DNA from: Candidatus Brocadia sp.
GTDB taxonomy: Bacteria > Planctomycetota > Brocadiia > Brocadiales > Brocadiaceae
Length of the DNA: 64,000 bases
Assembly: GCA_021646415.1 (NCBI GenBank)
Contig: SOEU01000001.1
Location: 62,001-126,000 of the forward strand
Direction of reading: 5' to 3'
The number at the start of each line of letters is the position of its first letter. The stretch's first letter is position 1. The position numbers and the translations under genes were made by a program. The notes below the pieces were generated by a model. It was given only the letters and a program-made list of their open reading frames with translations, made no database searches and had not been told where the DNA came from. Of the stretch, positions 13,440 through 60,618 are shown piece by piece.

Positions 13440-13942
13440 GCCCACGAAATACGCGAAATTACGCGAAAAAGAAAAATTTTGGATAAGTTGAACTATGTCT
13501 GGGATCTTATATCCTGATGAAAGTTATGCCATCATGGGAGCTTGCTTTAATGTTTACAAAGCAATGGGATGTGGGTTTCTAGAGAATGTTTACCATGAAT
13601 GCCTGGAAATTGAATTTGAAGAGCAAGGAATTTCGTTTGAATCTTGCAAAGAATTAAAACTCATATACAGAAATAGGCAACTGAAGCAGACGTATAAACC
13701 AGATTTTGTATGTTACGATAAAATAATTGTTGAAATTAAGGCAATTTCCAATTTGCTGGATGAGCACAAAGCACAAGTTCTTAATTATTTAAACGCATCC
13801 GGACTAAAGTTGGGCATACTCGTTAATTTTGGTCATTATCCTAAATTAGAATACGAGAGATTTATTTTAACAGATGAAAGGCCAATGGACGTACCGTAGT
13901 TAAAGAGATAATTTTTAGTGTCATTTCGTGTATTTTGTGGGC
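13440..13942. mobile_element. Inverted-repeat-bounded cassette carrying a GxxExxY gene
   Basis: The sequence starting GCCCACGAAATACGCGAAAT at 13440-13470 is repeated in inverted, imperfect form (26 of 31 positions) at 13912-13942. The pair encloses only the GxxExxY gene. The cassette fills the gap between hyfG and the hyfH-hyfI fusion, genes otherwise packed with 0-11 bp spacing. This points to insertion into the operon. No transposase is present inside. Confidence 0.75.
13495..13899 (+). CDS. GxxExxY-family protein (PDDEXK-like)
   Basis: A 134-residue protein with the family hallmark GCGFLENVYHECLEIE (G-x-x-E-x-x-Y) near residues 26-40. PDFVCYDKIIVEIKAI near residues 72-87 resembles the D...ExK core of PDDEXK nucleases. 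The family is widespread in planctomycetes and Bacteroidetes, and its function is not established. Start: ATG at 13495 with a weak upstream GGA. It is unrelated to hydrogenase function and sits inside a cassette with inverted-repeat ends, so I read it as cargo or driver of a small mobile unit. Nuclease activity is inferred from the motif only. Confidence 0.85.
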   Translation: MSGILYPDESYAIMGACFNVYKAMGCGFLENVYHECLEIEFEEQGISFESCKELKLIYRNRQLKQTYKPDFVCYDKIIVEIKAISNLLDEHKAQVLNYLNASGLKLGILVNFGHYPKLEYERFILTDERPMDVP

Positions 13943-14796: not shown

Positions 14797-14873
14797 ACCA
14801 GGTAGGTCACGGGCATTGCTGCCCGATTCCCCCCCTCAGAACCAGTACGTGATAGTTTCCCATCATACGGCTC
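14797..14873 (-). mobile_element. Group II intron 3'-end remnant (domains V and VI)
   Basis: On the minus strand, 14873-14839 reads GAGCCGTATG, a GAAA loop, then CACGTACTGGTTC: a group II domain V with one extra base in the 3' arm. It is followed by a GC-rich domain VI-like hairpin (CGGGCA/TGCCCG at 14810-14825). The rest of the interval to about 15224 has no reading frame and may be further decayed intron sequence. It points the opposite way to the intact intron that begins about 350 bp downstream. Confidence 0.65.
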
Positions 14874-15634
14874 AAGCGCCAGTTAAGGCTTCCCTTGTGG
14901 AGAAACCCATGAATAAAATGTTAATTCACTCCACGTTAGTAATCGGCTGTCAGTAACAAGAAATACGAAGGGGGGCACCAATACTATTAAGTATCGTCAT
15001 TTGCGTTCCCTTCTTTTCAACTGATTAATCCGACTTTCACGTGATAAGGCACCTGCCAAATATCAGCCCACTTACGTAGCCGGTAATATTGCAACCGGTA
15101 TACCTATCATTACAATAGGTCATTCGCTTTCTTAAGGCATCTCAACCCAAACCTCCAACAGCATGCTTTACAGTTAGCCTACCCAATAGGAAGAAAAATT
15201 GTGGGGTCAAAGGAAAAAAATTGGCGTGCCCAGGGAAGGGTATTGCTTTCTAGCGGGTGAAAGTCCCGTCATGGTAAAAGCCGGAGCCATGTAGCTTGGA
15301 TGGCAGGGGGCGATGGAAACATTACCTTCTGAAGCCCATTGACAAAGTCGGCGTAAGGCCGGTGAGCGAATATCCGGGTCGTAACGTACGTGAACGTAGA
15401 GGTAGCCTCGTGAAAGTCAAGAACCACTGGCCGAGCCTGTCAATTTTAGGCGAAGGCGGAATTCTCTGACCTAAACTGGCTAATGGGGAAAAGAACGGTG
15501 GCGGGGTATCAGCGACGACACGGATAGAAAGGAGCGGTATCAACTGGGGAAGCCCTCCTTGTCCCAGATAGAAATATCAGGAACGAAGGTATGCCCTATA
15601 AGTCGAACGGCGAAATGGGCAGACAGACAAGAGG

Positions 15635-17044
15635 GTGGCGGATGAGTCCGTAGTAGCGAGGATGACAAGGAAACATAACCTTGCCGGAGCGAAGGGACTC
15701 TGCTGTGACTTAAATCTTTCTACGGAGGCGAGGCAGGGAAGAATGACAAAGGCTTCCATAAGTCTGCAGGAACTGAGGAGAAAGATATACAGGAAGGCGA
15801 AGACCGAGAAGCAATGGAGGTTTTGGGGACTGTACTGTCATGTCTGCAAGAAAGAAGTCCTGAGAGAAGCCTATCGATTGGCAAAGGCCAACGATGGTGC
15901 ACCCGGAATCGATGGAAAGAGTTTCGAGGACATCGAGGCAGAGGGGGTTGAGGGATTTCTAGAAGGGATAAGGCAGGAACTTCTTAACCGGGCATACAGA
16001 CCGTTGCCCAACAGAAAGGTCGAAATACCGAAAGGAAATGGAAAGACCCGAATGCTTGGGATACCAACGGTCAAAGACCGGGTAGTGCAGGGAGCGTTAA
16101 AGCTTTTATTGGAACCGATATTTGAAGCGGACTTCAAGGACTGCTCGTATGGCTATCGTCCCAAACGACACGCACATCAGGCAATCGACAGAGTGACGAA
16201 AGGGGTACTGCATGGCCTTACCAGGGTGGTGGATGTAGACCTGAGCGGATACTTCGACAACATAAGGCATCATATACTGTTGGAAAAGATAGCCCGGCGG
16301 GTGCAGGACGATGATATCATGCACTTGGTAAAACTCATTCTTAAGGCAAACGGGGAGAAGGGAGTGCCGCAGGGCGGGATCATATCGCCGTTGCTGTCGA
16401 ACCTTTACCTAAACGAAGTGGATGAGATGATGGAGCGGGCAGGGGAAGTAACCCGCCGCAACGGATACTACAATCTTGAATTTATCCGGAGCGCAGATGA
16501 CATGGTAATACTGATACACGGACATCCTAGAGAGAACTGGTTAATACAGAAAGTTCAGAAGCGACTCAAAGAGGAACTGGACACATTGCAGGTACAAATG
16601 AACGTGGAGAAGACGAAGGAAGTGAATCTCCAAGAAGGAGGATGTTTTAGTTTTCTGGGGTTTGACGTTAGACTCGTCAGAAACCGTGAAGGCAAGGCCT
16701 ATGTCAGCAAGACACCCCGCAAGAAGAAACGACAGGAAATCGGCAAGAAGATAAAGGCGGCGCTCAAGGCAAACTGGAACAAGCCATTAAAAGAAGTGAT
16801 ACAAACAGTCAATGCAATAATCAGGGGCTGGGTGAATTACTTCAGGATAGGCAATAGTAATAGTACCTTCAACAAAGTCAGAAATTACAGAGAGATGAAG
16901 GTGCGAAGGTTTGTCATGCGCAGAAAGAAACTGAAAGGTTTTGGCTGGAGGAAGTGGAGTAGGGAAGAGATATACGAAAAATGGGGTCTGTTCAATGACT
17001 ACCGAATACGATATGTTTACCCGAAAGCAAATCCAAGCCGATAG
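15635..17044 (+). CDS. ltrA: Group II intron reverse transcriptase/maturase
   Basis: A protein of up to 469 residues. The reverse transcriptase domain shows RVVQGALKLLLEPIFEADF, SYGYRPKRHAHQAI, VVDVDLSGYFDNI and GVPQGGIISPLLSNLYLN. It is followed by a domain X/GIIM region (VIQTVNAIIRGWVNYFRIGN). It has no HNH endonuclease domain, as in many bacterial class introns that target ssDNA. The catalytic box normally written YADD reads SADD here (S286, A287, D288, D289). The aspartates are kept but the tyrosine is lost, which could reduce activity or be a sequencing variant. The true start may be internal (for example the ATG at 15742), because the first residues overlap intron domain sequence. Confidence 0.9.
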   Translation: MADESVVARMTRKHNLAGAKGLCCDLNLSTEARQGRMTKASISLQELRRKIYRKAKTEKQWRFWGLYCHVCKKEVLREAYRLAKANDGAPGIDGKSFEDIEAEGVEGFLEGIRQELLNRAYRPLPNRKVEIPKGNGKTRMLGIPTVKDRVVQGALKLLLEPIFEADFKDCSYGYRPKRHAHQAIDRVTKGVLHGLTRVVDVDLSGYFDNIRHHILLEKIARRVQDDDIMHLVKLILKANGEKGVPQGGIISPLLSNLYLNEVDEMMERAGEVTRRNGYYNLEFIRSADDMVILIHGHPRENWLIQKVQKRLKEELDTLQVQMNVEKTKEVNLQEGGCFSFLGFDVRLVRNREGKAYVSKTPRKKKRQEIGKKIKAALKANWNKPLKEVIQTVNAIIRGWVNYFRIGNSNSTFNKVRNYREMKVRRFVMRRKKLKGFGWRKWSREEIYEKWGLFNDYRIRYVYPKANPSR

Positions 17045-17074
17045 GTGCATATGCCTTGTTGTGAAGAGCACAGG

Positions 17075-17108
17075 AAAGCCGTATGAGGGAAAACCTCACG
17101 TACGGTTT
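17075..17108 (+). ncRNA. Group II intron domain V
   Basis: A 34-nt hairpin: AAAGCCGTATGAGG, a GAAA-type loop, then CCTCACGTACGGTTT. It contains the AGC catalytic triad at 17077-17079 and the two-base bulge before CGTACGG. It lies 30 bp after the maturase stop, as expected. Confidence 0.85.
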
Positions 17109-17156
17109 GATGAGAAGATGCTGGAAATAGGGTATGGTTGTGATCGTGTGACACTC

Positions 17157-18197
17157 TCAGAGGAAACGGAGAGAAACGGGGAATACAAACCTCAGCCTGT
17201 AGCCACTACGCCAGTGTTTTACTCTACACAAATCCGCTTCAACTCTTTTGATGATCTGAGAAATACGTTTGTCATTTTTCAGTTTTTCTCGTAATCGTTT
17301 TCTCCCCTGGCTCACTGTACTATAGTCCACCCCCATCATTTCTCCTATCTCAACTCCGCTTAGTCCACCAACCCGATACAACAAGTCCATAGCTATTTGC
17401 CTTATTATACCTCGTTCCGTTTTTATTTCATCAAAACTTTTATTCGTCTCTTTGCAAAGTGCATCAATGATTTCATCTTTTGCGGTATATTTTTTTAACC
17501 GTTGTACTGCAGGAATCTCACGTGATTTCGCTGGCAAAAATTTCTTTCTTACCCAATTGATAAACGCATCACTCCCCAGTATGCTTCCTCCAATAACCCT
17601 TTCTTTTATATCAATACCTGTCGATAAATCATTACAGAGTGTTTCCCAATACAAGCTCCTTCCTTTTTTGTTGTCTCCTCCATATGATTCAAGTATCCTG
17701 GCATAATCAATAATGCCATTTCTTCGGGTATCGTCGATATAGCCCAAAAGGCTGCTCCACGTATAACTCCTTAAATATTTCCTTTTTTCTGACAATGGGA
17801 GTTCTTCTCCTTGTTTTGTTCTAACCGGGTTTAAATGGATATATCGGGATACAATATGCAGATAACTTTTCTTTTCCACGAGAATACTCTTGTATCTTCC
17901 CTGATACAAATGGCCAGTCCTTTTATGTCTTCTATTGTAATGAGATGTGTAAGTGATGTTAAACCATCTCATAAATTTACTGAGATTGGCAAGGGGTGTT
18001 TCTAAAAGCAGATGGAAATGATTATCCATGAGGACGTAACAATACAGGATGACATGATACGTTTTCAACCCATCATTCAATAACTCAAGAAACAGATTCT
18101 TATCATGGTCATCCCTGAATATTGCCTTCCTCTCGTTACCCCGGCAGGTTACATGATATAATGCATCTTCGTATTGTATTCGTAATGGTCTTGCCAT
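17157..18197 (-). CDS. REP-associated tyrosine transposase (RAYT, Y1_Tnp) with DnaA-like C-terminus
   Basis: A 346-residue protein. The N-terminal half is a TnpA_REP/Y1 transposase: MARPLRIQYEDALYHVTCRGN, the HUH pair in MDNHFHLLLETP, and YQGRYKSILVEKKSYLHIVSRYIHLNPVR with candidate catalytic tyrosines. The C-terminal part (IRQIAMDLLYRVGGLSGVEIGEMMGVDYSTVSQGRKRLREKL) resembles the DnaA domain IV helix-turn-helix found fused to many RAYTs. The last roughly 20 residues run into the group II intron's 3' region, so the native C-terminus may have been altered. RAYTs act on palindromic REP sequences, and several candidates occur in this window. Confidence 0.88.
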   Translation of the reverse strand: MARPLRIQYEDALYHVTCRGNERKAIFRDDHDKNLFLELLNDGLKTYHVILYCYVLMDNHFHLLLETPLANLSKFMRWFNITYTSHYNRRHKRTGHLYQGRYKSILVEKKSYLHIVSRYIHLNPVRTKQGEELPLSEKRKYLRSYTWSSLLGYIDDTRRNGIIDYARILESYGGDNKKGRSLYWETLCNDLSTGIDIKERVIGGSILGSDAFINWVRKKFLPAKSREIPAVQRLKKYTAKDEIIDALCKETNKSFDEIKTERGIIRQIAMDLLYRVGGLSGVEIGEMMGVDYSTVSQGRKRLREKLKNDKRISQIIKRVEADLCRVKHWRSGYRLRFVFPVSLRFL

Positions 18198-25346: not shown

Positions 25347-25676
25347 TGCGGATTTTTATTTCTTAGAACGGGGGAAAGAGGATTATTGGTATGAAATTTT
25401 AAGATAACAAAAATGCAACCACTGGACTGATAACCACCCCTCTTTCCCCTCCTTCGCAAGGAGGGGATTAGGGGAGGTGAGATAAACGCTTTACAATATC
25501 TTCCCATGCAAAGTGGGGACTTCGCCGTGGTGTTTTCGACTTCCTTCGGCATGACGTCATTCCAAGCGGAGTCAAGGAATCAGTGGAACGATGAAGGGGA
25601 GTTCTTCCACCAGAATTGTCATATGGGTTCTTGTCACAGGCGTCACATAAATAAAAAGAAACCTCTGTCTATCAAG
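25347..25676. other. Intergenic region with a hairpin repeat
   Basis: Between two convergent genes. It holds a strong hairpin, CCCCTCCTT-CGC-AAGGAGGGG at 25446-25466, of a kind that recurs in related form near 54170-54205. It may serve as a bidirectional terminator or be a REP-type repeat. No gene seen. Confidence 0.5.
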
Positions 25677-50411: not shown

Positions 50412-50556
50412 AGCGACGAGGCTCGTCGCTTTATAACCTCCTCTCCTTCGCAATGCAATGTCATCAAGTTAAGATAATGTGTCGCCCTTTCAGGGCTAAA
50501 AAATTGTTACGCTCTATACCCAGGGCTGTCGCCCTGGGCTATATTCTATCAGCCCT
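50412..50556. repeat. Cluster of small palindromes (REP-like)
   Basis: AGCGACGAG-G-CTCGTCGCT at 50412-50430, CCCAGGGC-TGTC-GCCCTGGG at about 50519-50538, and AGCCC-TTC-GGGCT just after. They fill the gap upstream of the small protein and downstream of glyS. Possibly RAYT substrates or terminators. Confidence 0.55.
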
Positions 50557-50701
50557 TCGGGCTTTACTTCCAAATAAACAAAATGAAAATTCCTTGTATA
50601 ATACATTTAACCTGAAAACCTTGTAGACAATGCCGATTTGTCCGCTTTTTAATACCGTCGCTATAAACATAATTATTCTGTCGCCTTGGAATCAGACTCC
50701 C

Positions 50702-59567: not shown

Positions 59568-59924
59568 TTGGGGGTGTTAAATTCACGTTTAATATTTAAA
59601 TATTACAAACGATCCGCCTCGGTACTTGGCGATGCCGATAAAGGCGGGCGTGTTAGGTGGTTCACTCAGGATGTGTTAAAGCTCCCTATTCGCACCATCA
59701 ACTTCTCTGACCCGAAGGACAAGTTCCGTCACGATCATATGGCTGCGCTTGTCAACCAAATGCTCGAACTCCACAAGCAATTAGCATCGGCAAGGACAGA
59801 CTATGACAAAACCATCATCCAGCGCCAGATAGACTCCACCGACCGCCAGATTGACCAGTTGGTGTATGAATTGTATGGGCTGACGGGGGAGGAAATCAAG
59901 ATTGTTGAGGATGGCTCGTCTTGA
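59568..59924 (+). pseudogene. C-terminal remnant of an Eco57I/TaqI-type restriction-modification gene
   Basis: 118 codons: LNSRLIFKYYKRSASVLGD, then RWFTQDVLKLPI, then HDHMAALVNQMLELHKQL, TIIQRQIDSTDRQIDQLVYELYG and LTGEEIKIVE. This matches the C-terminal end of type IIG-like DNA methyltransferase/nucleases, including the coiled-coil and LVYELYGLT tail. The catalytic and most of the specificity domain are gone. It is bordered by MITE-like elements on both sides. Confidence 0.72.
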
Positions 59925-59932
59925 AACTCTAA

Positions 59933-60044
59933 GCGGGTTCAAGTTTGCAACTTAAACCCAGGTGTTTGATTCATCCGTCAGTTTGAATTCCTGACGTTAT
60001 TCGCTGACAAACCATAGGATTCGGGGTATATACATGAACTCGCG
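59933..60044. repeat. MITE-like element, family A, copy 2
   Basis: Same structure as copy 1: AAGCGGGTTCAAGTTTGCAA at the left end, TTTGATTCATCCGTCAGTTT inside, and a degenerate right end (GAACTCGCG). It starts 8 bp after the restriction-gene remnant's stop. Confidence 0.72.
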
Positions 60045-60062
60045 AATTAATGGAACATCGTG

Positions 60063-60509
60063 TTTTCCCCTCTAAAAAGAGGGGACTAAGGGGTGTGTTT
60101 CCCATGAAGATAAATTACCATCCAAAACTCAAGGAACTTGCACGGAAATTGAGAAATAAGAGTACGAAATCAGAAATAAAGCTCTGGCAATACTTGAAGC
60201 GTAAAAAAATGATGGGGTATGATTTTCATCGGCAAAAACCAATTGATACGTTTATAGTAGATTTCTTTTGTAATAAATTAAAACTTGCCATTGAGTTGGA
60301 TGGTTATACCCATACATTTGAAGAAATTGCAGAGAAAGACGCCGTAAAACAAGGGAAATTAAAGGAATTGGGTATAACGGTATTGAGATTTTGCGATGAA
60401 GATGTCATGAAAAATACGGATGGGGTTTTACAAGTAATTCGAAGGTTTATTGAAAATTATGAAAAACAGAAATTACACACCCCTTAATCCCCTCTTTTTA
60501 GAGGGGAAA
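60063..60509. mobile_element. Inverted-repeat-bounded cassette carrying a DUF559 gene
   Basis: TTTCCCCTCTAAAAAGAGGG at about 60064, continuing into ACTAAGGGGTGTG, is mirrored at 60474-60509 (CACACCCCTTAATCCCCTCT, then TTTTAGAGGGGAAA). Each end is itself a hairpin. The gene's ATG lies just inside the left repeat and its stop codon inside the right repeat, so the repeats and the gene form one compact unit of about 447 bp. Confidence 0.75.
60104..60487 (+). CDS. DUF559 (VSR-like PDDEXK) endonuclease-type protein
   Basis: A 127-residue protein from ATG 60104 (an upstream in-frame ATG at 60050 lies in repeat sequence). ARKLRNKSTKSEIKLWQYLKRKKMMGYDFHRQKPI, FIVDFFCNKLKLAIELDGYTH and VLRFCDEDVMKN are the DUF559 core. 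The D and E of VDF...IELDG fit the VSR/PDDEXK nuclease active site. No biochemical role is established for these stand-alone proteins. The TAA stop lies inside the flanking repeat. Confidence 0.85.
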   Translation: MKINYHPKLKELARKLRNKSTKSEIKLWQYLKRKKMMGYDFHRQKPIDTFIVDFFCNKLKLAIELDGYTHTFEEIAEKDAVKQGKLKELGITVLRFCDEDVMKNTDGVLQVIRRFIENYEKQKLHTP

Positions 60510-60618
60510 GTGTGTAGGGATGGGTTATGTGAAGCGTACCCATCATTTCTTATTTATCATAGGCTGCAGAGGTGTCTTGTAACAGTCAAATTAAAGATCG
60601 GCAGGTTCAAGCCGGAAT

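Follow-up and report, generated by a model that had tools for sequence, protein, structure and literature searches.

The cassette of the window

The window, i.e. the whole stretch of 64,000 nucleotides analysed here, carries a gene encoding a DUF559 protein between two inverted REP-like units (Table 1). Each arm is 35 nt long; the two arms are 97% complementary and are separated by 376 nt. An arm is made of a perfect 8-bp hairpin (TCCCCTCT-AAAA-AGAGGGGA) and an unpaired tail, A(C/T)TAAGGGGTGTGT, ending in GGGGTGTGT. The tails face the gene and the hairpins are outermost. Folded as single-stranded DNA, the arms give exactly this hairpin (MFE -8.1/-8.2 kcal/mol, z -3.0 to -3.9). The arms correspond to REP-like units rather than to simple terminal repeats of the transposon type. 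The coordinates confirm what a sequence-only reading had described, namely inverted repeats overlapping the ends of the gene: the distance from the left arm inwards to the ATG (60104) is 6 nt, and the TAA (60485-60487) falls within the right arm. The place of the stop codon varies among the 80 relatives bracketed in this way: 27 have it within the right arm, 17 ahead of this arm and 36 beyond it. The ORF that starts at an upstream in-frame ATG (60050) encodes 145 aa and crosses the left arm; conservation starts at MKINYH, so that this N-terminal extension is not conserved and is probably not used. According to the ORF list, DUF559 is the sole gene inside the cassette and no transposase gene is present between the repeats, unlike in a classical DNA transposon or MITE. 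The GTGT found at both ends of the cassette is possibly a 4-bp target duplication or may be due to chance; no consistent duplication was found among the other cassettes.

Table 1. Features of the window. Positions are counted from its first nucleotide.
Feature	Position	Strand	Basis or remark
GxxExxY gene; inverted flanks made of iterated 9-11-mers (CCCACGAAATACGCGAAATTACGCG), not the DUF559 hairpin	13519..13866		
Group II intron pieces	14797..17227		Rfam
Solo class-E unit, one hairpin flanked by two tails	25431..25480		-16.9 kcal/mol, z -5.2; no DUF559 gene seen adjoining
Acido-Lenti-1 RNA	50519..50564		Rfam
ORF resembling the C-terminal remnant of a restriction-modification/methylase-type gene	59568..59924		Fuller version at the matching place in a relative (G007)
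Segment belonging to a different dispersed repeat family (AGCGGGTTCAAGTTTGCAACTTGAACCC...)	59930..60063		Found beside several DUF559 cassettes
Possible N-terminal extension from the in-frame ATG 60050, through the left repeat	60050..60103	+	ORF list
GTGT adjoining the left end; GTGT again at 60510-60513	60060..60063	+	Window sequence
Left REP-like unit, hairpin CCCCTCT-AAAA-AGAGGGG and tail ACTAAGGGGTGTGT facing the gene	60064..60098	+	Inverted-pair match, DNA folding
Left hairpin, 8-bp stem, 4-nt loop	60066..60085	.	Inverted-pair match, folding
DUF559 (predicted Vsr/EDxHD-type) nuclease gene, 127 aa	60104..60487	+	ATG start, TAA stop
Right REP-like unit, tail facing the gene, contains the stop codon	60475..60509	-	Inverted-pair match, DNA folding
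Right hairpin, 8-bp stem, 4-nt loop	60488..60507	.	Inverted-pair match, folding

The DUF559 protein

The protein belongs to Pfam DUF559 (PF04480; E=2.4e-32, 111.5 bits for a gathering cut-off of 20.6). Its Pfam matches are PF04480, PF18741 and PF10881 only; the HUH transposase family PF01797 is not among them. Its AlphaFold model (pLDDT 86) predicts a Vsr/EDxHD nuclease fold. VIA-align gives Z scores of 15.7 to 3hrl, 11.1 to I-Bth0305I (3r3p; rmsd 3.0, 96 residues), 9.4 to Vsr (1cw0) and, weakly, 6.3 to TnsA. Among characterised proteins, the nearest in fold (Foldseek 9.3e-05) is I-Bth0305I, an EDxHD homing endonuclease whose catalytic domain has a similar fold; unlike it, the DUF559 protein is a 127-aa stand-alone protein that has neither a separate DNA-recognition domain nor an intron context. 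Across 42 diverse members, nine polar or charged positions never vary (E24, R43, Q44, D53, E64, D66, H70, D79, R95); they are putative active-site residues. The dN/dS ratio of the window gene, calculated with six orthologues, is 0.15-0.25. Such values (about 0.2) indicate purifying selection; the protein is therefore maintained. Involvement in a defence system was rejected, the PADLOC matches being only marginal (DpdF, homing endonuclease).

Cassettes and repeat classes of the host genome

The host assembly (G000; 3.8 Mb, Brocadia-like planctomycete) contains seven DUF559 copies. All seven are located between two inverted units that have a common architecture and differ in sequence. Six classes are distinguished: A (arm CCCCTCT, tail TGTG), which is the class of the window cassette; B (arm CCCCCTT, tail TTGT); C (arm CCCCCGC, tail TGGA); D (arm CCCCTCCTGGG, tail TGGG); E (arm CCCCTCCTT, tail RGGT); and F, a longer repeat found at one host locus (L017). 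AGGG is among the further tail classes recorded. Two host copies are decaying: one has a frameshift near its start (L016) and that of the class F locus lacks its N-terminal half. In the host, copies of the hairpin are scattered as well away from any DUF559 gene (40 sites with at most 2 mismatches, for 7 with the reversed control). The complete hairpin-plus-tail pattern has 14 copies in the host, more than expected by chance since the reversed control gives 0 in all 39 genomes; the 38 relatives have 0 to 92 copies.

Such dispersion bears on the possibility that DUF559 has a host function, as a Vsr-like mismatch-repair or defence nuclease, the repeats being terminators, processing hairpins or insulators of a mobile gene. 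The Vsr fold is consistent with this, as are the proposed role in mismatch repair of Caulobacter VsrA, the one DUF559-domain protein for which a published study was found (PMC12907096), the purifying selection on the gene and the ability of hairpins to act in RNA. A terminator, however, needs neither two inverted tailed copies nor hundreds of dispersed gene-free ones, and several paralogues with different repeat classes are found in one genome; unlike Vsr and VsrA, the DUF559 gene is multicopy and bracketed by repeats. The terminator reading itself was rejected: the hairpin has no T-run 3' of it and no gathering-level Rfam match was found at the cassette, the only ones in the window being group II introns and Acido-Lenti-1. 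A host function is considered very unlikely.

Inverted flanks of related genes

The nearest homologues of the window protein are encoded by Candidatus Brocadia and other Brocadiales. Further ones are found in Bacteroidota, Ignavibacteriota, Nitrospirota, Nitrospinota, Chloroflexota, Patescibacteria and other groups. Each of 115 non-redundant stand-alone DUF559 genes was given a flank score, the best inverted match obtained when its upstream 250 nt were compared with its downstream 250 nt. It reaches 16 or more in 80 of the 115 genes and in 1 of 451 position-shifted controls drawn from the same loci; as the genes were picked for their resemblance to the copies of the host, this 70% is not a family-wide figure. 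The other 30% lack such inverted repeats. Cross-paired flanks also reach a raised level (86/575) because the motif itself is common to the loci. The check suggested in the sequence-only reading, in which many DUF559 loci are compared with 100-bp flanks, is thus clearly positive, and the arrangement that this reading had proposed, i.e. a nuclease gene with palindromic inverted ends and no transposase inside, is real and widespread.

Plasmid-borne stand-alone homologues (Deinococcus, Azospirillum, cyanobacteria, sphingomonads) reach this score in 8 cases out of 14, one of them being borderline (exactly 16), with hairpin repeats of their own; the shifted controls of the combined plasmid set give 0/69. 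Homologues from viral contigs are positive for inverted repeats in 8 of 44 cases, most of these divergent members having none, and the flanks of E. coli ycjD do not contain such inverted repeats. Spread by phages was rejected: only two distant phage matches were obtained, and the 44 stand-alone homologues of viral contigs lack hairpin units of the window's classes, the inverted repeats of the 8 positive ones being different.

A hairpin-plus-G-tail unit is located at 250 nt or less from 87 of the 115 DUF559 genes. It was not found beside any of the other genes compared within this genome group, i.e. 30 GxxExxY, 29 four-helix-bundle (TIGR02436) and 24 Y1-transposase genes. The background is 34 in 2000 random windows, which is too high a figure, as every second stretch sampled had been chosen near repeats. 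Among the gene types compared, the repeat unit is therefore specific to DUF559.

Tail class and protein clade

When plotted on the DUF559 protein tree (115 rows), which is built from few columns and leaves many forks open, the tail class changes 11 times, for a minimum of 7 and a mean of 52.7 after shuffling (0 of 200 shuffles as low). Tail classes form clades that cross phyla: TGGA is found in Planctomycetota and Sphingobacteriaceae, and TTGT in Brocadia, Balneolota and Ignavibacteriota. Since a single genome can nevertheless hold six or seven tail classes, the repeat goes with the protein and not with the host. Repeats riding along with the gene could explain part of this match. They do not explain that a non-coding repeat stays recognisable across about 50% protein divergence.

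These results also bear on whether DUF559 is mere cargo, caught by repeats that another enzyme moves (a Y1/RAYT transposase, or host replication or repair acting on hairpins). Cargo would not have a repeat class that tracks its clade over such divergence and in several phyla, nor would it be the only gene type compared that is bracketed. Y1 transposases are present in 37 of the 39 genomes; as movers of the repeats they are unsupported, none of the 24 Y1 genes adjoining the hairpin-plus-G-tail unit and these genes having different repeats of their own. The abundance of repeats in some DUF559-free genomes, and composite elements with their own terminal repeats that carry class-C doublets with or without DUF559, would fit the cargo explanation, which is nonetheless regarded as quite improbable.

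Dispersed units and doublets

Solo and paired units are dispersed in the same manner as REPs and REPINs. Same-class doublets separated by 0 to 60 nt (n=37; the sampling was not random) are mostly oriented tails-inward, as in the gene cassettes (22), more rarely outward (10) or direct (5). The commonest doublet belongs to class A. It is about 75 bp long, has a variable middle of 13-15 nt, folds into one long hairpin (z -7.5) and is found at many sites; in Brocadia-like genomes, it recurs within an element of about 170 bp. Class-C doublets are located in a larger element with the terminal repeat CATRCGTGTTAAGTTAAG, whose middle is short or contains DUF559. At three loci (L378, i.e. G009:C249, L302 and L210), other hairpin repeats interrupt a class-A unit in its loop or stem, which leads to nested mosaics.

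Genomes that have a class-A gene hold more class-A repeats (p=0.02), having a class-C gene makes no difference to class-C abundance within the family (p=0.29), and the overall correlation of gene and repeat abundance is modest (rho 0.32); none of these three values is corrected for phylogeny. A strict rule that the repeat is found only where the gene is fails on two genomes. In one (G030), no DUF559 match accompanies the 92 class-A units, which are either single or paired tails-outward; in the other (G020), a single weak DUF559 match is found for 47 class-C units. Many of the G030 units (L382-L401) form tails-outward doublets about 29 nt apart, with an extra GTCCGCC..GGCGGAC hairpin in the linker. 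The sequence-only reading had envisaged that the repeats might be equally common at random positions without the gene. In a sense this is so, solo units being numerous; they are not a random background, since their conserved tail, class structure and doublets point to a REP-like dispersal.

Borders of the cassettes and matching loci

Cassettes that are 88-96% identical to the window gene occupy different sites. Homology between them ends at the hairpins on at least one side (both sides for L065, the right side for L055). To the left of five of them (L014, L055, L064, L066, L067), further common sequence corresponds to another dispersed repeat starting with AGCGGGTTCAAGTT, into which the cassette appears to have gone.

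The search for empty sites proposed in the sequence-only reading gave matching loci from which cassettes are absent; base-exact empty sites were not found. Brocadia pituitae has two cassettes at the locus of the window. Three other Brocadia-like genomes have a downstream gene matching that of the window and no DUF559 gene; the junction is not clean. Deinococcus psychrotolerans carries a cassette between paaD and paaZ, whereas these genes are 83 nt apart and the cassette is absent in Deinococcus sp. QL22, the pair being too diverged for a base-exact reading. The joined flanks of about 18 cassettes or doublets gave no junction-spanning match in 11 congeneric genomes, because many flanks are themselves nested repeats.

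DUF559 might be a homing-type nuclease: it would cut chromosomal REP-like sites, and a cassette with matching ends would be copied in by homologous repair, the repeats being landing pads. This would agree with the end of cassette homology at the repeats, the kinship of fold with I-Bth0305I and the homing-endonuclease matches in PADLOC and PHROGs. An element keeping two intact repeats would, however, remain a target of its own enzyme, and the ends are inverted, not direct. Moreover, free-standing short doublets with variable spacers would need their own route of multiplication, intron or intein context is absent, and the paaD-paaZ pair points to an insertion at a site without pre-existing repeat. 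Homing is considered unlikely.

A proposed REP-associated nuclease

REPs are among the commonest bacterial repeats. To our knowledge, only the GTAG-tagged ones have had a candidate enzyme. The REP/RAYT system, or REPtron (Nunvar et al. 2010, PMC2817692), resembles the DUF559 cassettes in several respects: the gene is flanked by two inverted hairpin-plus-tag repeats, the repeats are also dispersed without the gene, several classes are found per genome, and repeat and protein appear to coevolve. The two differ in the enzyme, here a predicted Vsr-fold PF04480 nuclease and in RAYT a PF01797 HUH tyrosine transposase; in the tag, here G4-5 followed by TGTG, TTGT, TGGA, TGGG and similar motifs and in the REPs of RAYT GTAG; and in the weak correlation of gene and repeat abundance for DUF559. 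The cassette would be RAYT-like in its working, but it is no RAYT member, since it has neither an HUH transposase nor a GTAG tag. REPINs are inverted REP doublets (Bertels and Rainey 2011, PMC3116915). Class-A doublets are likewise inverted, with a variable spacer and a single long hairpin; they differ from REPINs by belonging to another family of repeat and gene and by their inclusion in a larger element in Brocadia-like genomes. CGTC-tagged REPs, reported without a dedicated transposase (BMC Genomics 2013, PMC3733652), are also a REP superfamily without RAYT, and their tag differs.

By analogy with the REP/RAYT system, the favoured explanation, given with some confidence, is that DUF559 is a REP-associated nuclease acting on its own repeat to spread it, the enzyme being unrelated to RAYT. 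That each DUF559 branch has its own version of the repeat, in at least 10 bacterial phyla, suggests that the enzyme helps the repeats and its own gene to spread. The window unit would be an autonomous member of a REP-like family, in which the nuclease gene is bracketed by the repeat that its product recognises. The hairpin and GGGG-TGTG tail would be exposed in single-stranded or cruciform DNA; DUF559 would bind its own tail or hairpin class and nick at or near the repeat; the breakage, followed by repair or replication, would copy the repeat, a doublet or the whole repeat-gene-repeat cassette elsewhere. DUF559, rather than a host enzyme, would thus mobilise the repeats. Short tails-inward doublets would relate to the cassette as REPINs do to that of RAYT, being its non-autonomous derivatives. 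Several results speak against this reading: the genomes rich in repeats without the gene, the failure to find an exact empty site with a target duplication, the modest abundance correlation, the sampled relatives, E. coli ycjD and viral-contig members without inverted repeats, and the mismatch-repair role proposed for VsrA.

DUF559 would then be a second enzyme family of unknown function tied to a specific REP superfamily. From the link it can be predicted on which repeat a given nuclease acts, and a protein of 127 aa with a substrate of 35 nt makes repeat multiplication testable. Many genes annotated as 'endonuclease domain-containing protein' may belong to selfish elements rather than to host repair or defence. 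In the literature searched, mostly outside subscription journals, no paper was found that links DUF559 to palindromic or inverted repeats, or Vsr or GIY-YIG to REPs.

Other small genes with inverted repeats

It had been proposed from the window that its GxxExxY cassette is packaged in the same way as the DUF559 gene, as part of a common strategy. The first proposal does not hold: a repeat shared by both genes is ruled out, the DUF559 hairpin unit being found at none of the 30 GxxExxY loci. Inverted ends are found at 17 of these 30 loci (shifted controls, 0/113) and consist of iterated 9-11-mers such as CACAAAGACACAAAG. What remains of the common strategy is a small gene accompanied by an inverted repeat family of its own. 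Inverted flanks are also found at four-helix-bundle (TIGR02436) genes (L262-L291; 15/30, for 0/108 shifted controls) and consist of short units that are iterated, for instance AGTGGTTAGTGG.

A broader proposal is put forward tentatively and with appreciable doubt: DUF559 proteins may be the dedicated mobilising nucleases of a large REP superfamily not assigned before (hairpin and G-run tail) present in at least 10 phyla and, more generally, unrelated small nucleases (DUF559, GIY-YIG, perhaps GxxExxY) may each drive their own palindromic or iterated repeats, RAYT/REP being one case of a broader class. GIY-YIG genes located between CGTC REPs fit the reading given here for DUF559. Inverted CGTC-type REPs bracket the gene at 4 of 7 GIY-YIG loci, a small sample (L527, L529, L531 and L532; alphaproteobacterial plasmids). 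In Azospirillum lipoferum, a small GIY-YIG gene bracketed by such REPs is located between sufB and sufC.
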